A stretch of 26,514 bases of DNA from a virus: positions 1-26,514 of IMG/VR virus record IMGVR_UViG_3300040808_001646. One strand, given 5' to 3'. Made by a program: the position numbers and the translations under genes. Below are positions 3,686 to 25,757 of this stretch, one piece after another (within the stretch, counting starts at the first letter, position 1; each line of letters starts with the position of its first letter). The notes beneath the pieces are model-generated. The model had not been told where the DNA came from, searched no databases, and saw only the letters and a list, made by a program, of their open reading frames with translations.

Positions 3686-4127
3686 CGCTGTCATGTTCTT
3701 CAGCCAATTGGTTGAGTTCTTTTTTTGTAGATAATCTAGCAAGTAATTCTGCCTCATCTTCTTTCATGTTAGGATAAATTCTTTTTATAAATTCTACTTC
3801 TTTAGAACCTGCACGTTTCAATCCTATCCAAGGATGAAATTCTTTCTTACCTGTGTTGCCGCACTGACATAGTAATAACCATTGTAGTTTAGGTTCTTTG
3901 TTACCTAGTACAGCCCAGTTCTTATTATAGTATTCGTTTGTTTTAAATACCGCAAGTTCTTGTTTATCACGTGATCCGCTTACGCTGCTCATGTATCTGT
4001 TTAGATTCCACAAGTCGCCTTTGATTTCTTTTTGACCTTCTTCACCAGCAGCATCATATAGTTCACGCATACCTCCATCTAGTGCAGGTATCATTTCTTT
4101 AAACAAGTCAATGTGTTTGTTTGGCAT
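3669..4127 (-). CDS. Conserved phage protein of unknown function
   Basis: From the ATG at 4127 (MPNKHIDLFKEMIPALDGG) the protein has 152 residues. This start is preferred over an upstream one at 4181 because a clear GAGGA Shine-Dalgarno site lies about 6 nt before it and because the overlap with kdsB drops to 20 nt. The sequence is mixed alpha and beta with a CQC pair (LLLCQCGNTGKKEFHPWIG), which is too little for a zinc site by itself. The C-terminal part is acidic and helical (YPNMKEDEAELLARL). I do not recognise a family. It lies between kdsB and the zinc-finger gene in the same overlapping operon. Confidence 0.7.
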   Translation of the reverse strand: MPNKHIDLFKEMIPALDGGMRELYDAAGEEGQKEIKGDLWNLNRYMSSVSGSRDKQELAVFKTNEYYNKNWAVLGNKEPKLQWLLLCQCGNTGKKEFHPWIGLKRAGSKEVEFIKRIYPNMKEDEAELLARLSTKKELNQLAEEHDSDVKFR

Positions 4128-4794
4128 GCCATTCCTCGACGTCTTGCGGAGTATTAATCTCAGTACCATTATATTGTACACTCAAACAACCAATTTGCCA
4201 ACCGCTTTTTAACCAACGCAGTTGTTCGAGTTTTTCTACACGTTCTTCTTGTGTAACTTCTAGAGTAGGATATAATTGTAGTGCGTTCTTACGGTATCCA
4301 TAAACACCTAAGTGCCAATCACCATAGCCTGTCATACCTCTGCCAAACCATAGTGCCTGGTCACCTGCTCTAACCATTTTTACTGTGTTAGGATCGTTCT
4401 GTTTTTCTTCTGGCATATCCGTAAACACTGTTGTAACTGGATAGTGTTTTAAGTGCCAACGAGCTTTATCGATCATTTCTTCTGTAACATCAGGCATGTC
4501 ACCTTGTACATTTATAAATTGATCGTAACCGAAATTAAGTAGACTACCATCAATAGCACCAGCACACCGTTCGGTTCCATTCTCATAGTCCGTTTGATCG
4601 ATCCAACACACTTCCCAATTGAATAACCTAGCGATCTGCATATTATCTGTAAGCACGTAGGTGTCAGTTCCTGTAGCTTTGCATTTTTCATATACAGTCT
4701 CAATCATTGTTTTATTGCCAAGCTTGGCAAGTGGTTTACCTGGAAAGCGTGTGCTAGCATATCTAGCGGGAATAATGATGGCCGATGATGTCAC
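4108..4794 (-). CDS. kdsB: CMP-Kdo synthetase (3-deoxy-manno-octulosonate cytidylyltransferase)
   Basis: KdsB couples CTP and Kdo to CMP-Kdo, the donor for Kdo transferases. The family motifs are clear: IPARYASTRFPGKPLA near the N-terminus (nucleotide loop), GTERCAGA, NVQGDMP (metal-binding Asp), HLGVYGYR, and EKLEQLRWLKSGW near the C-terminus. I place the start at a GTG at 4794 because a perfect AAGGAG lies 6 nt upstream (4801-4806); the ATG at 4809 lies upstream of that Shine-Dalgarno site. This gives about 228 residues, close to the usual 240-250. It overlaps kdsA by 32 nt, so the two consecutive Kdo enzymes are probably translated together. Confidence 0.92.
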   Translation of the reverse strand: MTSSAIIIPARYASTRFPGKPLAKLGNKTMIETVYEKCKATGTDTYVLTDNMQIARLFNWEVCWIDQTDYENGTERCAGAIDGSLLNFGYDQFINVQGDMPDVTEEMIDKARWHLKHYPVTTVFTDMPEEKQNDPNTVKMVRAGDQALWFGRGMTGYGDWHLGVYGYRKNALQLYPTLEVTQEERVEKLEQLRWLKSGWQIGCLSVQYNGTEINTPQDVEEWHAKQTH

Positions 4795-5536
4795 GAACAA
4801 CTCCTTCAAAGTCCTCTAGTTTTAACATATTGGGCCCGTCGCTAGGAGCGTTATCTGGATCGGCATGTACTTCTAAAAAGAAATTCCCAATCCCCAAAGC
4901 ACTAGCTGCACGACATAGGCCAGGAACATAATCCCTATTGCCGCCGCTACTGCCTCCGTTGCCACCTGGCTTTTGTACGCTGTGCGTGGCGTCCAATACC
5001 ACAGGACAATCAAAATTATCAAGCATGTAATTAAGGCCGGTGAAATCAACAACCAAAGTATTATATCCAAAACTAGTACCCCTTTCTGTGATCCATACTT
5101 CTCGGGCACCTTCTGTTTTTGAAAGGATACCTTTTACGTCCCACGGTGCAAGGAACTGTCCTTTTTTGATATTTACAATCTTATCTGTAGCACAGGCTGC
5201 ACGAATTAAATCTGTTTGTCTACATAGGAACGCAGGAATCTGTAGTACATCGATTGCATCATCAAACTCGTCTCTAATAGTATACACTTGGCGCACATCG
5301 TGTACATCTGTGAGAGTTTTTACTCCAAGTGTTTTTTTGATTTCACGAAAGTCAAACAGTGTTGCGTACAGTCCTTGTCCGCGTTCGCCGTTTGCACTTG
5401 TACGGTTGGCTTTGTCGTAACTAGCCTTGAAGATATATTCTATGCCGTACTTGTCGCATACACGCTTACATTCACGTGCAATCTCAGCTGATTGTGCTAG
5501 TGTTTCGTGTTGACATGGTCCTGCAATAATTCTCAT
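4763..5536 (-). CDS. kdsA: Kdo-8-phosphate synthase
   Basis: KdsA condenses phosphoenolpyruvate with arabinose-5-phosphate to Kdo-8-phosphate. The 257-residue protein keeps essentially all family blocks: IAGPCQHE at the start, FKASYDKANRTS, TDVHD, LQIPAFLCRQTDLI, NIKKGQFLAPWDVKGI, TERGTSFGYNTLVVDF, DATHSVQKPGG-N-GGSSGG, and EVHADPDNAPSDGPNML. Compared with bacterial enzymes (about 280 residues) it lacks only a short N-terminal extension. The start overlaps the upstream 85-residue gene by 4 nt (ATGA). Kdo-8-P phosphatase (KdsC) and arabinose-5-P isomerase (KdsD) are not in the window and may come from the host. Phage carriage suggests that Kdo supply is limiting for a phage-made glycan. Confidence 0.96.
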   Translation of the reverse strand: MRIIAGPCQHETLAQSAEIARECKRVCDKYGIEYIFKASYDKANRTSANGERGQGLYATLFDFREIKKTLGVKTLTDVHDVRQVYTIRDEFDDAIDVLQIPAFLCRQTDLIRAACATDKIVNIKKGQFLAPWDVKGILSKTEGAREVWITERGTSFGYNTLVVDFTGLNYMLDNFDCPVVLDATHSVQKPGGNGGSSGGNRDYVPGLCRAASALGIGNFFLEVHADPDNAPSDGPNMLKLEDFEGVVRDIIGHHYSR

Positions 5537-7005: not shown

Positions 7006-7512
7006 CTATACTAGCAACGAATACTCTATCACTTCACATTGTCTACTAATATCCTTGACAAAAAATGCACATAATGGTTTTTCTCCGTCTGTGATAGGAA
7101 CACTAAGTAGTTGTCCGTTTTTCATTTTTGGAAAATACCATTTTACATCTGAGTAAAAGTTTACAATTTCTATTTCTGCAAAGTCTACTTTATAACTTGA
7201 TAATGGATTAAAAAGAAATGCTTCGAAGCCTCTGTTGTTAAGACTTGTAAGGGGAAGTATTTCTAAATCATTACCACTTTCTGAACATCCTACTGCAACA
7301 CTCCAATCAACTGGCATTGTAATTTCATGCCCATTAATATTAATTACCATTGCAGGAGAACTAAAGCTCTCAAGAAAGATTAAAGGTACAAAAAAGAAGT
7401 CAGGGTTTTTAGGATCGCTGTTGTCTAGTACACTGAAGCGTACATCATCTTCTATTTCATCTGGTAACTTATCTAAGTGAAAGCACTCGTTTTCTAATGT
7501 TAATATTCTCAT
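7006..7512 (-). CDS. Conserved protein encoded next to uvsW, unknown function
   Basis: I start this protein (168 residues) at the ATG at 7512, which overlaps the uvsW stop by 4 nt (ATGA), rather than at an in-frame TTG at 7518. It opens MRILTLENECFHLDKL and contains conserved-looking stretches FNPLSSYKVDFAEIEIV, VKWYFPKMKNGQLLSVPI and CAFFVKDISRQ. It looks like a soluble beta-rich protein. My recollection is that a similar protein accompanies uvsW in marine T4-like phages, but I know no function for it. Confidence 0.75.
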   Translation of the reverse strand: MRILTLENECFHLDKLPDEIEDDVRFSVLDNSDPKNPDFFFVPLIFLESFSSPAMVININGHEITMPVDWSVAVGCSESGNDLEILPLTSLNNRGFEAFLFNPLSSYKVDFAEIEIVNFYSDVKWYFPKMKNGQLLSVPITDGEKPLCAFFVKDISRQCEVIEYSLLV

Positions 7513-8972
7513 TGCCAATCTACCTTTTCTATTGTGAAGGGGTATTGGGCTTCCTTATAAAACTTTTTGCGTTGTGTAAGGTGCCGCTTCGCAAACTTAC
7601 AAGTGCTTGTAAGATCCCATATTTGTACGAAGTCTTTGTCCTTTGCCTTTCTAACGCCTCTACCAATTGATTGAATTACACGAACAAAAGACTTACCAGG
7701 TTCAAGCAGTACCAAGTTAAAAATGCGAGGAATGTTGATACCAACGGCAGCCACACCATAGGTAGCAATGACCACCTGATTATCGCCCGTATTAATATCG
7801 TCATACGCATCTTTCCTGTCCTTTAGTTTTACATCTCCTTTAACAAAGACGCTTCCTGGTATAAGTTCGTGTAGCATCTCGCCTGCTGAAATACGATCTA
7901 CTAGTATTAGTGTATTGCCTGATTCTTTAACTGTGTTTAATAGTTTGCCTATATATTCTATTCTTGCTGTGTTTGTTGTTAGATATTTTAATTCTGATTG
8001 ATAATCATTATGTGCTACTGTATCCATTAGCTGTACAATGTTAACATGCACTTGTGATAGTACACCTTTGTCTTGTAGTTCTTTAGCACTGATCTGTCCG
8101 ATAACAGGACCTAAGCTAGCATGAATACTTTCAAACTCAAACTTCTCTTTAGGTACTGTACCAGTTAGTCCCCAACGGATAGGAGCGTTGCGTAGGTTGC
8201 GTGTAAGCAAGTTCTTAAGAACTTCTGCTTTAGCTTGGTGTACTTCGTCGACAATAATAGTGCTTACACCTTCTAAAAACTCTGCAAGGCTTAATATAGC
8301 CGCGCCGTCTTTGTGTCGCTTGTCAAGTATATTCAAACTCTGCCAAGTGCATATAGTGTGAGTCTTACCTAGTTCTTTTCTGTCTCCGAAGTACACCCCT
8401 ACGTCTAACCCACAATTGATATAGTCTTCTTCAGTTTGTGTAACAAGACTTTTGTTAGGCACAATTACAAGACTACGTCCGTACGGCTCACTAATATGTG
8501 ACAGGGTAGCAGTTGTGATTGTCTTACCTGCTCCTGTTGCAATCTCTTGCAAGCTCTGTGGGTTTTGTAGAAAGTTGTTGATTGCTGTGACCTGATAGTC
8601 ACGCAGTATTATTTCTTCGCCTTCTGCTGGATGTCCTTTAGGCCAGCGTACACCTTGGTCCGCCCAGTAACGTTCTGTGATAGGCTGAAAGTCTAATTGT
8701 ATAGGATGTCTACGATCATCAATGTCTACAATTTCGACACGATTCTTTTGCAAAACTTCAACAATAGTATCAAGATGATTAACGTAGCCGGTACCGCCAA
8801 TACCAAAGAAAGCCACTTTGCCATCCCAACGTCCCAGTTTATATTGGGGCATGTATCGAGCGTAAGGCACTTCAAATTTAAGAGCATTCGCGAGCTTTCG
8901 CCGTACGTCAACTTCTAAACCCTCCAGTTTTATGTTTACTTCATCTTCAATAATTAATCTACAACTTGCCAT
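7509..8972 (-). CDS. uvsW: UvsW-type SF2 DNA/RNA helicase
   Basis: UvsW in T4 unwinds branched DNA and R-loops and helps switch from origin-dependent to recombination-dependent replication. The 487-residue product is close to T4 UvsW in length (503). After an N-terminal domain of about 120 residues comes the Q-motif-like LRDYQ (123-127), Walker A ATGAGKT (145-151), the DEVH box (242-245), motif III GLTGT (268-272), and motif VI QSIGRGVRK (434-442). The gene overlaps its upstream neighbour by one base and its downstream neighbour by 4 nt. It is the second gene read from the sigma70-like promoter at 10226-10254, consistent with early or middle expression. Confidence 0.95.
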   Translation of the reverse strand: MASCRLIIEDEVNIKLEGLEVDVRRKLANALKFEVPYARYMPQYKLGRWDGKVAFFGIGGTGYVNHLDTIVEVLQKNRVEIVDIDDRRHPIQLDFQPITERYWADQGVRWPKGHPAEGEEIILRDYQVTAINNFLQNPQSLQEIATGAGKTITTATLSHISEPYGRSLVIVPNKSLVTQTEEDYINCGLDVGVYFGDRKELGKTHTICTWQSLNILDKRHKDGAAILSLAEFLEGVSTIIVDEVHQAKAEVLKNLLTRNLRNAPIRWGLTGTVPKEKFEFESIHASLGPVIGQISAKELQDKGVLSQVHVNIVQLMDTVAHNDYQSELKYLTTNTARIEYIGKLLNTVKESGNTLILVDRISAGEMLHELIPGSVFVKGDVKLKDRKDAYDDINTGDNQVVIATYGVAAVGINIPRIFNLVLLEPGKSFVRVIQSIGRGVRKAKDKDFVQIWDLTSTCKFAKRHLTQRKKFYKEAQYPFTIEKVDWQ

Positions 8973-10219
8973 TATAGTATATCTAATTTCCTTGTATATT
9001 TCATCATCGTAGAAACTTCGTCATCATAATGAATGATTAAATCAAAGTCTTCAGACCAATAAGATAGTTTAGTATGCACACGCTGACTCTGTAACATAAG
9101 CATTGTTCTTGGATTACAATTACTTTTTAAAAGCGGCTTATTAATCTTTTCTCTACTAATATACACTATTTTTGTATTGTTGTCAATCGGAGAGTTTAAT
9201 TCTTGTTCTTTGATATATTCGTTAAACCCATTGCTCTTACTTGATTCTAATCTAAATAAAACACTAATTTGTTCTGCTGGAATAATATTTTTGAAATGCT
9301 TGTGTGTTTGCACAAGAGTATCAAAAGGCATATCTTCGTCTAATAAAATTACTAGCGGATATCTTTCTAGATCGTTTATTGATTGTACTATGTTATCAAG
9401 TGTCCAAGACTTTTTATCTATAAAAATATTAGCGTTTTCTCTGTTAACAATTTTTTGTGTAAGTGTAGAATAATTTGTTAGACTATCCGCAAAAGAGTTA
9501 TCAAAGGAATGTATACCATACAACAAACTACGATCTTTATATAAGACGACATTGTCGCTGCTTAATTTGCCTAATTCTTCTTCAATACTTTTTACACCAT
9601 TAGGATGTAGATTTTTCAACTGCATATTTTCTACACAAGGCAAATGATTTGTTTCTTGTAGTGCAGCAACCTTTTCATAGTAATCGATTAATTCTTGATC
9701 TATTTCAAAGTTTTTGTCTTTGAAAGTTTTAACAATGTTGTAAGCATTTTTTTCATTTAACATAAAGAAGTGCTCGTGCGAGCCCTTTTCATGTAGCTTT
9801 TCATTATGCGGACATACGATAGACTGTAGATCTACAATTAATTTTTTACTAAAAGGAAAACGTACTTTAATCCAATTCCAAGATTCTTTATATCGTTCGT
9901 ACGGAACATTTTGATATACAACTGCATTATCAACAATCTTAATATATTTGCTGCGATCAATTTGACGTAGGGGTTGTCTAAGGGTTTGTACAGCATTATC
10001 AAAATCTTGTTTGTATAATAAAAACTGAGGTTTGTATGCTTGCAGCTTTTCTTGCATTAGAGCAAACTGTCTATCAGTAAGAGGTGTACCTTTAAAAGCC
10101 TGTCTTGCAATGCTGTACATTATAGTAGCGTCAGACGACTCTATGTCTATCTTTGCTCCAGTACGCATACCGGCTAACATCTCAAGGAGATCTTCTATTG
10201 TTTCAGCTTTATGTTTCAT
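8972..10219 (-). CDS. Unknown protein, first gene of the uvsW operon
   Basis: This 415-residue protein has no recognised family. The N-terminal third is helical and begins IEDLLEMLAGMRTGAKIDIESS. A short CPHNEKLHEKGSHEH segment near residue 136 is rich in Cys and His. The C-terminal half alternates strands and helices (LVILLDEDMPF, ISVLFRLES, KIVYISREKI, DLIIHYDDE), suggesting a Rossmann-like or helicase-like fold without a visible Walker A. It directly precedes uvsW with a one-base overlap, so a partner role in helicase or recombination work is an inference. A near-consensus sigma70 promoter ends 6 nt before its ATG, leaving essentially no 5' leader and no Shine-Dalgarno. Confidence 0.75.
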   Translation of the reverse strand: MKHKAETIEDLLEMLAGMRTGAKIDIESSDATIMYSIARQAFKGTPLTDRQFALMQEKLQAYKPQFLLYKQDFDNAVQTLRQPLRQIDRSKYIKIVDNAVVYQNVPYERYKESWNWIKVRFPFSKKLIVDLQSIVCPHNEKLHEKGSHEHFFMLNEKNAYNIVKTFKDKNFEIDQELIDYYEKVAALQETNHLPCVENMQLKNLHPNGVKSIEEELGKLSSDNVVLYKDRSLLYGIHSFDNSFADSLTNYSTLTQKIVNRENANIFIDKKSWTLDNIVQSINDLERYPLVILLDEDMPFDTLVQTHKHFKNIIPAEQISVLFRLESSKSNGFNEYIKEQELNSPIDNNTKIVYISREKINKPLLKSNCNPRTMLMLQSQRVHTKLSYWSEDFDLIIHYDDEVSTMMKYTRKLDIL

Positions 10220-10225
10220 GTAAAC

Positions 10226-10254
10226 ATTATAACTTAAAATAGCTTAGAAGTCAA
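10226..10254 (-). promoter_or_regulatory. Sigma70-type promoter of the uvsW/kds operon
   Basis: On the minus strand TTGACT (10249-10254) and TATAAT (10226-10231) are separated by exactly 17 nt, one mismatch from full consensus. The ATG of the downstream gene begins 7 nt after the -10 box, so the expected start site coincides with the start codon. The -35 box lies inside the 3' end of the KpsS-like gene. It probably drives the long operon down to position 906 with host RNA polymerase. Confidence 0.8.
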
Positions 10255-11082
10255 GCGATTAAGTGGCAATCCGTCTGCTATTTCGTCTACAGTGTATTCT
10301 GTCCAAGCGTAGTCATTTAACCACTGCTGCCTTTCTGGCTGTAGAGGAGACTCTATAAATGCATAATTATTATTTGCAACAGTATATGCTAGGCTTTCAG
10401 GTCCAGTAAAGGCAGGAATACCATTTATTACACTGTGTATTCCTGGATTACTTGACCAGCTTACTGTTGCCCATATATTGTCAAACTTCATATCAAAGTC
10501 GTCGTATGTTCCGGGCAGTTGTCTTGGATCTTGTCTATAAACATTTTTATATTGATGCTCGATTGCGTCTAATCTACATCTTGGATGAGGGCGAAACAGT
10601 ATAGGTCTTTTGCTATGTCTTTGTATTTGATCAATAGTATCCATAACCCATTTGCTCATGCTTGGCATGTTTTGCCATTGTAAACTTTTATCGTGTTGTC
10701 CACAAATTAAAATAAATTCGCCGTCATTGCGCCAAGGTTTTAAAGTAAGTCCAAGTAACGTAGCACGATCAGGACTATTACCCACATCACCAAAATAAGC
10801 ACTACGATTAATTCCATTAATACCTACTTTCCATGTTGTGCCTCGTTTGATGCCGCCTACTTCTAGGACCACCACCGGTTTGGATTGTGCCAGTGCCCGT
10901 TCCCAGATAGCTTTATTCGAAGCCATTCTGCCATGCCAAAGAACACTCCAAATAACATCAACATCGCAAACAGGATCATTGTAAACAACATCATGACCAG
11001 CAGTATTGAGACTGTGAGCAAAGGCATCAAAAATTGGTTTACTATTGAGTGCGCCATATTGTGTCCATAAACTAAATTTCAT
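10234..11082 (-). CDS. KpsS/KpsC-like capsule (Kdo) transferase-like protein
   Basis: The 282-residue protein resembles the GT-B-like domains of KpsS/KpsC capsule proteins, which transfer Kdo from CMP-Kdo onto capsule lipid. The key block is LFRPHPRC (about 162-169, the HP motif) followed by ATVSWSSNPGIHSVINGIPAF (about 205-225), which mirrors the family's SS/TSN-x-G...EAL..GKPV. An ADG-like C-terminal tail (YTVDEIADGLP) is shared with the two paralogues at 11961 and 12829. CMP-Kdo is made by KdsA and KdsB in this same window, which strengthens the call. Its own 40-nt upstream gap is shared with a divergent glycosyltransferase gene; no clear promoter was found there. Confidence 0.75.
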   Translation of the reverse strand: MKFSLWTQYGALNSKPIFDAFAHSLNTAGHDVVYNDPVCDVDVIWSVLWHGRMASNKAIWERALAQSKPVVVLEVGGIKRGTTWKVGINGINRSAYFGDVGNSPDRATLLGLTLKPWRNDGEFILICGQHDKSLQWQNMPSMSKWVMDTIDQIQRHSKRPILFRPHPRCRLDAIEHQYKNVYRQDPRQLPGTYDDFDMKFDNIWATVSWSSNPGIHSVINGIPAFTGPESLAYTVANNNYAFIESPLQPERQQWLNDYAWTEYTVDEIADGLPLNRLTSKLF

Positions 11083-11122
11083 CTGTTAAATATCCGTATA
11101 ACATATTTACACGAGGAAGTAC

Positions 11123-14538: not shown

Positions 14539-15306
14539 CTAATCTCTTCTTTCTATGTCATCTTCTGTTAGTTCGTTGCCCATCCAAACTTCTATAACTC
14601 GTGCAGTAGTTTGTCCTATATTAGTTGCTTTATGCCAGGTGTTTACTGGTATATCTGTACTCTGACCTGACTTCACATTTAATGTTTCTCGTACACCATC
14701 TGGATATTCAAGATCCATTTTTATATATCCCTCAACAATATGCCAGTGTTCACTACGTTTAAAATGTCTTTGATCGCTTAAAGCTTTACCTGCATCGAAT
14801 GCAAGTTGTTTTACTTGCCAACCTTCGCCCTTGTCTAATACAGTGTATCTACCCCAGGCACGTTCTGTAGTAGGCTGGCTCCATTCTTTAAGGATCCAAC
14901 TGCTTGAATTCTTTTTGTCTTTGCCGCCAACGCCCCAGGCAAACTCGCACCAACGATAATCACCGTACACTTCATACTCAGGTGTAGTAGTATCAGTTCT
15001 GTCTCCGCCATTAGCAAAGATCATAACGTCATCACCTGTAATCATTGTTGCTACTTGACCGATTGCTTTGTTCGCTGTGTTGTCTAAATCGTCGAATCCG
15101 ATAACCTGATCAACTACTGCTAGTTCTTTGATAATAGCAGCCCGTTCATCAAACGGCATAAACGGACGGCCTTTTTTACGTGTAAGCCAAGCATCTGAAT
15201 TAAGGCCAACAACTAAGTGATCTCCAAGTTCTCGTGCTGCTTTAAAGTATGCAATGTGCCCTGAGTGTAAGGGATCAAAGCCTCCAGTAACTAAAACTAC
15301 TTTCAT
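14539..15306 (-). CDS. RfaE/HldE-type cytidylyltransferase fused to ManC-type cupin
   Basis: The 255-residue protein has an N-terminal nucleotidyltransferase (1 to about 130) with GGFDPLHSGH (8-17), GLNSD, KGRPFMPFDERAAII and the FDD-x-DNTANKAI region, very close to the nucleotide-transfer half of HldE/RfaE. The C-terminal part (about 148-250) is a cupin like the isomerase domain of ManC: ERAWGRYTVLDKGEGWQVK, HFKRSEHWHIVEG (H187, H189) and GQSTDIPVNTWHKATN. The combination suggests activation of a sugar- or polyol-phosphate plus its isomerisation, but the substrate is unknown. The sugar-1-P guanylyltransferase part of ManC is absent. A TATAAATA late promoter sits 5 nt before the ATG, without a Shine-Dalgarno. 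Confidence 0.88.
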   Translation of the reverse strand: MKVVLVTGGFDPLHSGHIAYFKAARELGDHLVVGLNSDAWLTRKKGRPFMPFDERAAIIKELAVVDQVIGFDDLDNTANKAIGQVATMITGDDVMIFANGGDRTDTTTPEYEVYGDYRWCEFAWGVGGKDKKNSSSWILKEWSQPTTERAWGRYTVLDKGEGWQVKQLAFDAGKALSDQRHFKRSEHWHIVEGYIKMDLEYPDGVRETLNVKSGQSTDIPVNTWHKATNIGQTTARVIEVWMGNELTEDDIERRD

Positions 15307-15311
15307 GTAGA

Positions 15312-15319
15312 TATTTATA
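15312..15319 (-). promoter_or_regulatory. T4-type late promoter (TATAAATA)
   Basis: Minus-strand TATAAATA followed by TCTAC and the ATG at 15306. With -13 to -6 placement the start site falls on the A of the start codon. It would drive the cytidylyltransferase-cupin gene and the glycosyltransferase genes downstream of it. Confidence 0.75.
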
Positions 15320-21432: not shown

Positions 21433-21459
21433 TTGTATAGCACAGTTAATACTATACAA
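21433..21459. repeat. 8-bp inverted repeat over the gene 32 -10 box
   Basis: TTGTATAG (21433-21440) and CTATACAA (21452-21459) are perfect inverted copies 11 nt apart. One arm overlaps the -10 box at 21451-21456, and the other lies just after the expected start site. The placement fits a DNA operator better than an RNA hairpin, since only one arm would be in the transcript. Confidence 0.5.
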
Positions 21460-21479
21460 CAATATTTATCAAAAGTCAA
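21451..21479 (-). promoter_or_regulatory. Sigma70-type promoter of gene 32
   Basis: Minus-strand TTGACT (21474-21479) and TATAGT (21451-21456) are 17 nt apart. The predicted start lies near 21444, leaving a leader of about 50 nt that ends in a strong AGGAGG. The spacer also contains GATAAATA (21463-21470), one mismatch from the late element, so gene 32 could be read both early and late. Confidence 0.78.
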
Positions 21480-22191: not shown

Positions 22192-24123
22192 CTCGCGCAT
22201 TCTATCAAATTCTGGAGCAACTTGTTCTGCTTGCTTGAATTCTACAAATGTTTGGTTTACTTGTTCTATAAACGCCTTTGCGGGTTCTATGAACTCTTCG
22301 CCATAGTCCTTTTCAACCATTGTAAGTATAGATGTTTCGCCTTTTGGAAAATCACCTGTTTCTCTATCAAAGTAACTTAAAATGAATTCGCCTAATGGTG
22401 TCTTTTGTTCTTTTTCTAGTGTAATCTCATCACCGTCTGGACCTTTGACTTTGTCGCCTTTTTTCTTACCGTCCATCTTAGCCTGACGCACTGCTTTAGC
22501 ATATGCATTGCCTTCGTCGGTATCTTTGTCGCCTTTTGACTTGTTCATTACGTTTTTTTCAAGCCATTGTAATGCTTTGGCGTGTGATCCGTCAAACTCG
22601 CCGTCGTTATAATATCCACTTTCAAATGATAGGTTGTCAACAATACTATAAAATGTCTTGATATCTTCTTCGGAATACTGTGCCCAATTTACTTTTGACA
22701 AATTAGCATAATCAAAGTCAATACCATTTGGCGGATCTTCTGACATTATGTCATGTCCGTCAAATTCGCTTTCGCCTTCTTTGACCTTAACACAGTTATC
22801 TACACGCTTGCCACCTTTCATTTTGGTGCCCATGCGCTTGTAGCCTTTCCAGCATACTTTACCGTCTACGCCTTTTTGCTTTTCTTCGTCTAGTGTGCGC
22901 CAGCTTGGGTTGCCGCAGTCTTCGCATACTTCGTCACTAAACTGACCCATTGCATCTTCAAATGCCTGTTCTAGTTCGAACTCTTCTTTTGTTTTCTTTT
23001 CTGCCTTGCTGTACTTGTCTTTTAGACGTCCTAGTTCTTCTTGGCTAGCACCTTTACGTCCAGCCTCGGCAGCTTTTTTCATGTATTCTTTACCGTGCTT
23101 CTTGACACCTGTGTAGTACTGTAGGCCTGATTCGTCAAGTAAGTCGTCTGCGCCGATTTCTTGTGCCTTAGTTGCTTCGCTTACTAGCTTGTAAATGTAA
23201 GGGAATACATCTTTTAATTCTTCGTTAAACTGCTTGATTGTTAGTTGATCAATCCAGTTTTCAGCAACATCGCTTGGTACATCTTCTAAGATAGGTGCTT
23301 CAAATCCTTCTACTGCTTCTTTGTATGCTGCTGATTTTTGTAGGCTTTCGATTGTCTTTTTGACTGCTGTAATACGCCCTTTTACAACATCCATGTAACC
23401 TGCTAGACTTTCTGCCATTACTGCACTACGACCCATGTAAGTTTTAAACTTACGTAGTTTTGCCATTTCTTCACTTAGTCCAGTGATATGCTTGCCAAAA
23501 TCATCATATGGATTACCGCCTTCTGCAACATGACGAGCCATTGCTCTTGCACCACTTAGGTGTTTGTAAGGGTACATAAATCTTTCGCCGTCTGCACTTT
23601 CAATGTAGATCTTACCAATCTTCTGTGTGCGTCCTGCGGCATTTTCTTGGTTAATGCTTTCAGTATGCTTGATTACCAAACGTGCATTATCTATGTTCTG
23701 GTAACTTAACTTGCTTGTACCATACATTTTCGATTCGTTCATGTTACTGTCCTCTGGGCGGTTTGCTAGATATTTGTAGTCTCTTTTTTCTAAATTGCTT
23801 TTAGTTATATCTCTAGTATCAAAGTTTAACATACGCTTCTTTGCAAACTGACGTAGTTCTTTTAAAAAGTCATACCACTTTGATTTAGACACTGCATTTT
23901 CCGCAACGTCTTTGTTAAACATAATTACCAAACCTTCTTCTTCTTCTAGGCTTACACTAATCTTTCCTAGATCATCGTCTCCTTCTCTAAAAGGAAATTC
24001 AAAGAATCTTGCTTCGCTAGGCTCTGTTGTTACATTGCCTTCGGCATTGCCGATTGTAACGCCAGGAAAGCGTCCACGTATTTTTGCAAATAATTCTTTA
24101 GCTGTTTGGTCTAAGTTCTTCAT
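22174..24123 (-). CDS. Large late protein with Zn-ribbon-like CWKGYK module, unknown function
   Basis: I start this 649-residue protein at the ATG at 24123; an in-frame TTG at 24138 is unlikely because a GATAAATA late promoter lies between them. The N-terminal part is mixed alpha/beta; the middle (about 330-390) is Lys/Glu-rich and probably coiled coil. Near residues 395-445 CEDCGNPSW is followed by VCWKGYKRMGTKMKGGKRVDNC, a Cys-rich module I recall in many marine T4-like phage proteins and that may bind zinc. The C-terminus (EFDRMRELAGLR) is helical. Its place right after gp17 and its late promoter suggest a virion or head-assembly role; this is inference. Function unrecognised. Confidence 0.8.
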   Translation of the reverse strand: MKNLDQTAKELFAKIRGRFPGVTIGNAEGNVTTEPSEARFFEFPFREGDDDLGKISVSLEEEEGLVIMFNKDVAENAVSKSKWYDFLKELRQFAKKRMLNFDTRDITKSNLEKRDYKYLANRPEDSNMNESKMYGTSKLSYQNIDNARLVIKHTESINQENAAGRTQKIGKIYIESADGERFMYPYKHLSGARAMARHVAEGGNPYDDFGKHITGLSEEMAKLRKFKTYMGRSAVMAESLAGYMDVVKGRITAVKKTIESLQKSAAYKEAVEGFEAPILEDVPSDVAENWIDQLTIKQFNEELKDVFPYIYKLVSEATKAQEIGADDLLDESGLQYYTGVKKHGKEYMKKAAEAGRKGASQEELGRLKDKYSKAEKKTKEEFELEQAFEDAMGQFSDEVCEDCGNPSWRTLDEEKQKGVDGKVCWKGYKRMGTKMKGGKRVDNCVKVKEGESEFDGHDIMSEDPPNGIDFDYANLSKVNWAQYSEEDIKTFYSIVDNLSFESGYYNDGEFDGSHAKALQWLEKNVMNKSKGDKDTDEGNAYAKAVRQAKMDGKKKGDKVKGPDGDEITLEKEQKTPLGEFILSYFDRETGDFPKGETSILTMVEKDYGEEFIEPAKAFIEQVNQTFVEFKQAEQVAPEFDRMRELAGLR

Positions 24124-24128
24124 AATAG

Positions 24129-24136
24129 TATTTATC
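24129..24136 (-). promoter_or_regulatory. Late promoter (GATAAATACTATT-ATG)
   Basis: Minus-strand GATAAATA followed by CTATT and the ATG at 24123. Both the -10 core (one mismatch) and the CTATT that follows match the extended T4 late consensus. It overlaps the 3' end of gene 17. No Shine-Dalgarno is present. Confidence 0.7.
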
Positions 24137-25715
24137 AAAAGTTGCTGCTAATAAAGATGGGCATTGGTGCTTCGTAATCTTCATCATCAGATGCTTGACT
24201 AAATGTATTATAGATCCTAGGATCCCAATCTTTTAGCACACTCATCATACGTATAGCTAACAATGTAGCACTTACTAAATCATCAGTCATACCTGTCTTT
24301 GCTTGGAAACTAGTGTTAGTTGCAACAAATCCTTTGAGCTCACTAATCAATGGTTTGCTGTGTATGACCATTTTGTCGTTTTCTAACATAGTCTTTAAGC
24401 GACTACACGCTGTGATTTTAGTGCTGTGTGTTGTATTAAATCCTTTACGGAACTTGCGCACATGTCCTTTACGCATAGGTTCGCTGACAAACAGCCCCGG
24501 AATGTTCTCTTCCCCAAAATCGTTTATAACGATTAATGCTGCCTCTCCTATGCCGTTGTTTTCAACGCTCCAATATATACCATTAGGATTCTTTGTTTCC
24601 TCTGCTAGGTATTTGCATATATCTGCCAGCACTCTAATCTGTCCGGGTATTGCGGTTGTATTGTGTTGCCATTCTGCTACTTGTTCGTAACTTGGTAATT
24701 CGTATACTTGTATTGCAGCAAAATCGCCGCCTGTTCCCATACTAGGATCAAGTGCTACACAATATGTAAATTGACTGGTAGGTTTTTTATACCAGCGTGT
24801 TTGTCCCATGTTTAGTATTGGATTATTACCTTCCATTACACTAAGTTTAATCGAGTTTATAAGTGTTTCGTCAAATACTAAGAATTCACAGCCGTATTCA
24901 CGACGGAACTTTTCTTCTCCGATACGACCTATTTCAGCTGCCTTCCATTCTTCGTCTCTATCAGGGTGTTCATCCCAACTTGCCATAAAGGATCTAAAAC
25001 CATTTATGCCTACTTCTTGTTCGTTACCGTGATTATCAAAACGTTGTTCTGCTTGTTTCCAAATAGTAGCAAATGTATCTTCGTCTGAATTAGGTGTGCT
25101 AGTAATAATAGCACGACCACCTGTTGCTAGTGTAGGTGAAATTGAAGTCCAAAACTCTTCCGCAATGTTAGGCATAACAAATGCAAACTCGTCACAGTAT
25201 AGTAATGAAATTGACATACCACGTCCTGTGTTGCCTGTTGTTGTTTGCGATACAATACGTGATCCGTTTTCAAACTCAATGCTACCTTTGTTATAGCTAG
25301 TAACACCTGCTCTAATATGATCAGGACAAGTTTCATACACATAGCGTATACGTGCCATAATCTCTTGCGCACCTGTGTATTTGTGTGCAGCAATAAGAAT
25401 AGTTTGGTCAGGATTAAACATAGCATACCAAGCAAGATAGATAGCAGCACAAGTAGTCTTGCCTGTTTGTCTAGGCATCATGTTTATATTAAAACGATAG
25501 TTGTGGTATGTATCCATTAACCCTAGTTGATAGTCATAAGGTTCAAACAACAGCTTACCTTTTACAGGATGCTGTATATAGGCAAACTTGCGAGCAAAAT
25601 ATAGATACCCATCTTTAGGATCCATGCACTGCATCAAGTCTTGTATTTGTTCTTCTGTATACGTTTCTTTGGTATTAGCTTTTTTAGTTAATACACCGTC
25701 TAAACTTTTACTCAT
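24135..25715 (-). CDS. 17: Terminase large subunit gp17 (DNA packaging ATPase-nuclease)
   Basis: gp17 pumps DNA into the prohead and cuts it at headful length. The 526-residue protein has Walker A PRQTGKTT (81-88), the Walker B strand and catalytic Glu in LLYCDEFAF, and coupling motif IITSTP. The RNase-H-like nuclease domain carries its aspartates and Glu in VALDPSMGTGGDF, WSVENNGIGEAAL and MTDDLVSATLLA. T4 gp17 is 610 residues; the difference is mainly at the ends. The ATG lies 5 nt after AGTAAATA and has no Shine-Dalgarno. A small terminase is not seen in the window. Confidence 0.96.
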   Translation of the reverse strand: MSKSLDGVLTKKANTKETYTEEQIQDLMQCMDPKDGYLYFARKFAYIQHPVKGKLLFEPYDYQLGLMDTYHNYRFNINMMPRQTGKTTCAAIYLAWYAMFNPDQTILIAAHKYTGAQEIMARIRYVYETCPDHIRAGVTSYNKGSIEFENGSRIVSQTTTGNTGRGMSISLLYCDEFAFVMPNIAEEFWTSISPTLATGGRAIITSTPNSDEDTFATIWKQAEQRFDNHGNEQEVGINGFRSFMASWDEHPDRDEEWKAAEIGRIGEEKFRREYGCEFLVFDETLINSIKLSVMEGNNPILNMGQTRWYKKPTSQFTYCVALDPSMGTGGDFAAIQVYELPSYEQVAEWQHNTTAIPGQIRVLADICKYLAEETKNPNGIYWSVENNGIGEAALIVINDFGEENIPGLFVSEPMRKGHVRKFRKGFNTTHSTKITACSRLKTMLENDKMVIHSKPLISELKGFVATNTSFQAKTGMTDDLVSATLLAIRMMSVLKDWDPRIYNTFSQASDDEDYEAPMPIFISSNF

Positions 25716-25720
25716 GTAAG

Positions 25721-25728
25721 TATTTACT
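25721..25728 (-). promoter_or_regulatory. Late promoter of gene 17 (AGTAAATA)
   Basis: Minus-strand AGTAAATA with CTTAC and then the ATG at 25715, the same 5-nt spacing as the other late sites, with two mismatches to TATAAATA. It directly abuts the T-tract of the upstream terminator, so gene 17 should need its own start. Confidence 0.6.
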
Positions 25729-25729
25729 C

Positions 25730-25757
25730 AAAAAAATAGCACCCGAAGGTGCTATTT
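25730..25757 (-). terminator. Strong rho-independent terminator upstream of gene 17
   Basis: A perfect 10-bp stem (25734-25743 with 25748-25757) closes a TTCG tetraloop on the minus strand, followed by seven T residues. It lies 22 nt past the stop of the acidic protein gene and ends that transcript. Confidence 0.92.

Follow-up and report, generated by a model that had tools for sequence, protein, structure and literature searches.

The 26,514-base virus record analyzed here, which we refer to at its full length as the window, encodes a terminase large subunit, ssb, a UvsX-like recombinase, a UvsY-like protein and a UvsW-type helicase and is therefore a fragment of a T4-like phage. On its minus strand, an apparent promoter for the host RNA polymerase stands so close to the start codon of the first gene of the uvsW operon, g415, that it raises the question of whether the operon mRNA has any 5′ leader at all. 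The original prediction was that it does not and that even the early transcript, like those of the late genes, begins with the start codon. We addressed this question by comparing the window with 160 related loci, designated here by L numbers, which were gathered through uvsW and terL scans (in each case the best 80 of about 600) and some of which come from one contig (L018 and L161).

Results

A predicted sigma70-type promoter abuts the start codon of g415

A near-consensus sigma70-type promoter is present where it had been proposed, agreeing with the consensus at 11 of 12 positions and having a 17-nt spacer (Table 1). The TATAAT hexamer is followed, after six nucleotides, by the ATG of g415, a 415-codon gene lying directly upstream of the UvsW-type helicase gene. 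In the usual promoter geometry the −10 element ends at −7, which would make the A of the g415 ATG the +1 nucleotide. TTGACT-N15-19-TATAAT occurs once in the window, against a mean of 0.06 in shuffles; TTGAC[AT]-N17-TATAAT appeared in 3 of 300 first-order Markov shuffles of the window, and the same motif followed by an ATG at 5 to 7 nt appeared in none of the 300. By its hexamers, its spacing and its conservation as DNA (described below), we take the site to be a sigma70-type promoter, from which transcription is predicted and whose type points to early expression.

Table 1. Features of the window discussed in the text
Feature	Position	Strand	Remarks
g282, upstream gene	10234..11082	−	Last codons hold the −35; stop codon inside the promoter spacer
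g415 promoter site, TTGACTTCTAAGCTATTTTAAGTTATAAT	10254..10226	−	TTGACT-N17-TATAAT
−35 hexamer TTGACT	10249..10254	−	Within the 3′ end of g282, as Leu-Thr codons
−10 hexamer TATAAT	10226..10231	−	17-nt spacer to the −35
6-nt gap GTTTAC, −10 to ATG	10220..10225	−	No Shine-Dalgarno motif
ATG start codon of g415	10217..10219	−	At predicted +1; read from the sequence; distance from the −10 kept in relatives
g415, first gene of the uvsW operon	8972..10219	−	415 aa; window protein without PHROG, Pfam or NCBIfam match
UvsW-type DNA helicase gene	7509..8972	−	One-base overlap of ATG with g415 stop (TAATG)
Internal promoter TTGACA-N17-TATATT in g415	9158..9186	−	Score equal to those of the ssb and g415 promoter sites; 185 nt before uvsW
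ssb promoter TTGACT-N17-TATAGT	21451..21479	−	59 nt from the −10 to the ssb ATG; AGGAGG in this interval
Late-type box TAAATA	25721..25726	−	5 nt before the terminase large subunit ATG (25715)
Late-type box TAAATA	24129..24134	−	5 nt before the ATG at 24123
Late-type box TATAAATA	15312..15319	−	5 nt before the ATG at 15306

We propose that host polymerase, directed by its principal sigma factor, would initiate on the first base of the g415 ATG or no more than one nucleotide away, so that the g415-uvsW mRNA would have no 5′ leader. Translation of g415 would then follow the leaderless pathway of 70S ribosomes binding to a 5′-terminal AUG (reviewed in PMC9031893). Stop-start coupling would allow uvsW and other genes further downstream to be translated, uvsW being served in addition by an internal promoter.

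The distance from the −10 element to the ATG is nearly fixed among relatives

A g415 match is present in 77 of the 160 related loci. We counted spacing in 68 rows, consisting of the window and 67 of these 77 loci, the 10 in which the match begins after residue 40 being excluded. In these rows, which are related, so that the counts are not independent, the gap between the −10 element and the ATG was 5 to 7 nt in 50 of 68 (6 nt in 40, 5 nt in 6 and 7 nt in 4), 8 nt in 1 and 9 nt in 2; a further 14 had gaps of 16 to 67 nt, and 1 had no ATG. The spacer was 17 nt in 60 of the 67 rows having an ATG. One of the 14 distant rows, L006, was counted at 16 nt only since another −10 scores higher, and with TTGACT-N17-TATACT as the choice its gap is 6 nt, as it is in one further relative, L175. 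Two loci (L007 and L072) had no promoter scoring 10 of 12 (score, 9), the promoter of L005 lies 64 nt from the ATG, and that of L030 is without an ATG. Identity to the window g415 runs from 58 down to 26% among the 49 aligned relatives (the alignment comprised the window and 49 of the 66 complete loci sequences), and the fact that the gap is held within about a nucleotide across this range implies that mere compactness is no explanation.

How precisely the start site coincides with the ATG is a separate matter, as transcription from a real promoter might begin 1 to 4 nt before the ATG and yield a very short leader with no true 5′-AUG. Start-site choice commonly varies by 1 to 2 nt, and the gap itself is 5, 6 or 7 nt among relatives, both of which leave room for such a leader. 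The base before the ATG, however, is a pyrimidine in 46 of the 53 close-spaced rows compared with 1466 of 2907 open reading frame (ORF) starts in the 160 relatives, which fits the A as +1, and even a very short leader would have no room for a Shine-Dalgarno site. The A found at this position in 7 of the 53 rows counts against the A of the ATG being +1 throughout. On balance we consider a short leader unlikely.

Shine-Dalgarno motifs accompany the longer gaps

For the leader-versus-Shine-Dalgarno test we scored AGGA, GGAG, GAGG or AAGG between −15 and −3 as a motif and used a tree of 64 g415 proteins from which L030 (no ATG), L007 and L072 (score of 9) and, by hand, L005 (ATG 64 nt away) were excluded, the gap of L006 also being set to 6 nt by hand. 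The tree contains 54 close-spaced rows and 10 with a gap of 17 to 25 nt, and the label changes at least three times along it. A Shine-Dalgarno motif was present in none of the 54 close-spaced rows and in 8 of the 10 distant ones (relatives carrying one are, for example, L050, L067 and L039), suggesting that the gain of a leader mostly brings a ribosome site with it. The two other distant rows are L033, in which AAGGAG immediately precedes the first ATG, and L053, with AGGT; in the close-spaced L075 an AAGG falls inside the 7-nt gap, nearer to the ATG than the motif window reaches. An independent-pair test on the tree provided only 3 pairs, which put significance out of reach.

These counts bear on the idea that the promoter is close to g415 merely through genome compaction and that g415 is translated from a read-through mRNA by coupling to g282. 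Such an arrangement would suit the position of the −35 within g282 and of the g282 stop codon, which lies 13 to 18 nt before the ATG in most close-spaced rows. The two distances behave differently, however: the gap from the −10 is nearly fixed, whereas that from the g282 stop ranges in close-spaced rows from 2 nt (L003) to 26 nt (L060 and L061) when loci whose g415 match begins after residue 10 are excluded. Furthermore, both promoter and ATG are kept in L088, L076 and L078, three loci in which the search for g282 gave no match, and the uniform lack of a Shine-Dalgarno motif in the close-spaced rows also argues against compaction, to which we assign a small probability. Smaller again is the likelihood that g415 truly starts further downstream, after a normal leader. 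N-terminal lengths do vary among relatives, but in the window no further in-frame ATG occurs until codon 14, which already belongs to the conserved TIEDCLE region, and relatives retain an ATG at an almost constant gap though the residues after it differ.

Codon choice in g282 preserves the −35 element

The promoter overlaps g282 in 62 loci, in the same frame in 61 of them; the single off-frame overlap, in L007, is without a good promoter. At all 61 in-frame sites the Leu codon at the −35 is TTG, compared with 12.2% of 1065 Leu codons elsewhere in g282. Each promoter was picked for its fit to the consensus around a start, a procedure that favors TTG, and the rows are related; given this, the real evidence for conservation of the −35 is that the picks land on the same, homologous Leu-Thr close to the g282 C terminus, except in L006, where the pick is at a neighboring Leu and the homologous Leu-Thr is also TTG-ACT. 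Protein constraint by itself would not account for the uniform use of TTG at a homologous Leu-Thr, which suits a −35 element. That the promoter resemblance is a by-product of g282 coding constraint, the −35 encoding a near-constant Leu-Thr, is hardly credible in view of this codon choice, the three loci that keep the promoter with no g282 match, and the retention of the −10 and the gap, which mostly lie past the g282 stop.

The leaderless transcript that had been read from promoter position is thus supported by comparison, through the 5- to 7-nt gap, the −35 kept in coding DNA and the occurrence of Shine-Dalgarno motifs mostly with longer gaps. We consider it highly probable, on this comparative evidence, that g415-uvsW is expressed as a leaderless mRNA from a functional sigma70-type promoter by host RNA polymerase and enters translation by the leaderless route.

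The predicted fold of g415 resembles a helicase domain, and its gene contains a probable promoter for uvsW

A scan of 50 g415 members gave one weak match to each of four NCBIfam families, and a sequence search of the PDB with g415 found no match. A fold model of g415 (mean pLDDT, 94) likewise had no Foldseek match in the PDB at an E value of 0.001 or below; in a viral structure library it matched two uncharacterized proteins of uncultured phages (E values of 1.6e-27 and 6.6e-21). Residues 229 to 415 of the model aligned with an XPB-like domain (Z, 12) and with a domain of T4 UvsW (Z, 10), so that the predicted C-terminal half resembles the RecA domain of superfamily 2 helicases. Because no Pfam helicase domain was found in g415 despite this resemblance, the protein may be an inactive partner of UvsW.

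The overlap of the uvsW ATG with the g415 stop codon suggests translational coupling. Within g415 there is also an internal site (Table 1), and a best score of at least 11 of 12 at 150 to 240 nt upstream of uvsW was found in 36 of 78 loci compared with 0 or 1 locus at this threshold in each of six control intervals. Among the 34 of 78 sequences having the amino-acid motif, codon choice agrees with the promoter hexamers: the Asp codon is GAC in 32 (versus 33% overall) and the Tyr codon is TAT in all 34. With 0.41 sites of at least 11 of 12 expected per window, we had considered chance as the source of the site at 9186; conservation and codon choice led us to reject this. As judged from these features, the site is a conserved sigma70-like promoter of uvsW, and would give the uvsW mRNA a leader about 180 nt long.

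Other sigma70-type promoters include leadered and close-spaced classes

Two promoters in the window do share TTGACT and a 17-nt spacer, as the original prediction had it. The second precedes ssb and, because 59 nt with an AGGAGG separate it from the ATG, is leadered; the promoter lies 58 to 88 nt from the ATG in 28 of 28 members of the ssb family that carry such a promoter, and those whose leaders were read have AGGAGG or AGGAGA. TTGAC[AT]-N17-TATANT occurs at 201 sites in the 160 loci and the window, and the next long ORF begins 5 to 7 nt away in 68 of these, g415 accounting for 42 of the 68. With a looser score of 10 of 12, 84 of 585 sites in the 160 relatives end 5 to 7 nt before an ATG. 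A 334-amino-acid protein family, which by its sequence looks like a DNA primase, has the promoter at 6 to 7 nt in all 12 copies carrying such a promoter and is an independent candidate for leaderless expression. Examples of this family with TTGACT-N17-TATAAT-like promoters are L063:14606, L065:7584 and L069:11438.

A subset of late genes has the TAAATA box 4 to 5 nt before the ATG

The comparison with late genes on which the original prediction drew held for some of them only. In the window, TAAATA stands 5 nt before the ATG of three genes (24135-25715, 14539-15306, and 22174 read from the ATG at 24123). Among 2304 TAAATA sites in the 160 relatives, 272 lie 4 to 5 nt before an ATG, 31 lie at 6 to 14 nt, and 334 lie at 15 to 40 nt; these totals include repeats because terL supplies a large share and some loci share a contig. 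Of the terL relatives, 65 of 81 have TAAATA 4 to 5 nt before the ATG; the remaining 16 lack the box over a distance of 60 nt. Immediately before the ATG there is a pyrimidine at 191 of 191 sites with a 5-nt gap and 79 of 81 with a 4-nt gap, as opposed to the roughly even split at ORF starts overall given above (1466 of 2907). A Shine-Dalgarno motif, from a somewhat wider motif set, accompanies 38 of the 272 sites at 4 to 5 nt versus 227 of 387 at 15 to 60 nt.

The gaps that put +1 on the A of an ATG are 6 nt for a sigma70-type promoter and 5 nt for the late class, and these are the commonest gaps seen. Five of eight long related contigs have a match to the gp55-like late sigma factor of HTVC008M (E values of 1e-12 to 1e-11).

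Two further arrangements of late boxes were seen in the window. A strong terminator-like hairpin (25757-25734) stands directly before the terL late box and ATG, which places termination, late promoter and start codon within about 45 nt (25713-25757, minus strand). Between two divergent genes, positions 11083-11122 hold opposed TAAATA boxes, one per strand, possibly a two-way late promoter with ordinary leaders.

The late spacing is shared with cultured SAR11 phages

As controls we used stretches of 49 to 50 kb from named phages, a single one per phage (two for HTVC008M) and with genes not matched, so that the following rates are only roughly comparable: TAAATA was found 4 to 5 nt before an ATG at 0 of 77 sites in T4 (49 kb), 0 of 30 in Syn9, 0 of 39 in P-SSM2, 0 of 26 in S-PM2, 0 of 42 in GAP32, 0 of 22 in Phosso, 0 of 46 in Atu_ph07, 0 of 29 in Vibrio 2.275.O, 1 of 117 in PA5oct, 2 of 38 in Melnitz, 4 of 94 in Mosig and 11 of 128 in HTVC008M. 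T4 thus differs from the window relatives, having 16 of its sites at 15 to 40 nt and none at 4 to 5 nt, where the relatives have both classes. Counted by ORFs of at least 60 amino acids, the figures were 12 of 242 for HTVC008M and 6 of 249 for Mosig over three stretches each, and 1 of 76 for P-SSM2, 1 of 68 for PA5oct and 2 of 107 for Melnitz, and the box was ATAAATA in 8 of the 12 HTVC008M and all 6 Mosig ORFs. The excess is clear in HTVC008M, with 6 per position at 4 to 5 nt versus 1.25 at 0 to 3 nt and 0.44 at 6 to 14 nt, and modest in Mosig, with 3 per position versus 1.00 at 0 to 3 nt, 0.44 at 6 to 14 nt and 1.12 at 15 to 30 nt.

Sigma70 sites of at least 10 of 12 were found 5 to 7 nt before an ATG at 0 of 29 in HTVC008M (two of the three stretches), 1 of 15 in Mosig and 1 of 12 in PA5oct, and none was found in the other nine control stretches, a near-absence suggesting that the early habit is characteristic of the window's own lineage. 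The cultured SAR11 phages HTVC008M and Mosig EXVC030M (141 to 147 kb; family Kyanoviridae) therefore resemble that lineage in their late boxes but differ from it in nearly lacking close-spaced sigma70 sites.

Discussion

A phage gene with a host-polymerase promoter and an AUG at the 5′ end of its mRNA is familiar from the cI message made from PRM of lambda, and the g415 case would share all three features. PRM, however, is an activated lysogeny promoter serving one gene, whereas the g415 promoter is near-consensus, stands before a recombination operon and is shared by many relatives. Leaderless expression from −10 regions adjoining ORFs, with a TANNNT −10 motif, is described for Deinococcus-Thermus in PMC12340547; that is a cellular phylum, whereas the window lineage is one of phages and has a full −35, a 17-nt spacer and a late box with the same habit. 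T4 late promoters carry their 8-bp TATA box roughly one helical turn upstream of the start site (PMC2988020), and the late box NATAAATA is also reported in S-PM2 (PMC2984593). Leaders of 26 to 491 nt are given for phage AR9 in a paper that calls phage transcripts often leaderless, citing an Escherichia coli study (PMC5312081). Leaderless mRNA is thus already known, but a T4-like lineage that keeps it under both promoter classes looks new: we found no such case among the matches listed in searches of the open-access literature.

With some hesitation, we suggest that a large T4-like phage lineage, probably marine, positions its host-polymerase promoters and its late promoters alike to make messages that open with the start codon, and that this might be an adaptation to streamlined marine hosts, since the cultured SAR11 phages share the late-gene habit. 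This would also explain why late-promoter prediction by a cyanophage method failed for pelagimyophages. A pelagimyophage report states that prediction of middle and late promoters was unsuccessful (PMC7029224), and the abutting TAAATA boxes of HTVC008M and Mosig, whose host is cultured, are a candidate answer to that gap for late promoters. If the proposal is correct, an environmental phage group bypasses Shine-Dalgarno initiation for chosen genes through two promoter classes, each with its own distance, and leaderless expression could be predicted gene by gene from an ATG about 6 nt after a sigma70 −10 element or about 5 nt after a late box.

Relatives and origin of the window phage

By terminase and helicase, the best named matches to the window are jumbo phages such as PA5oct, Phosso and Atu_ph07, at about 49 to 55% identity; IMG/VR environmental contigs, one of them 357 kb long, are nearer relatives. 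For g415, a peptide-pattern search of viral contigs and a tblastn search of phage records found no relatives, and a DNA-level search with the g415 region found no match. A marine origin of the window phage and its relatives is probable; the Red Sea is named in one title among the records. A uvsW scan of bacterial and archaeal genomes returned three loci, in metagenome bins labeled Neomarinimicrobiota and Euryarchaeota, which we did not accept as hosts because phage contigs are often misbinned.

A gene for an enzyme of the DAHP/KDO-8-phosphate synthase type (Pfam DAHP_synth_1) adjoins a likely CMP-KDO synthetase gene in the window (4763-5536 and 4108-4809, minus strand), the latter assignment being a presumed one from a sequence motif. 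The pair hints at phage-encoded synthesis of a lipopolysaccharide sugar.
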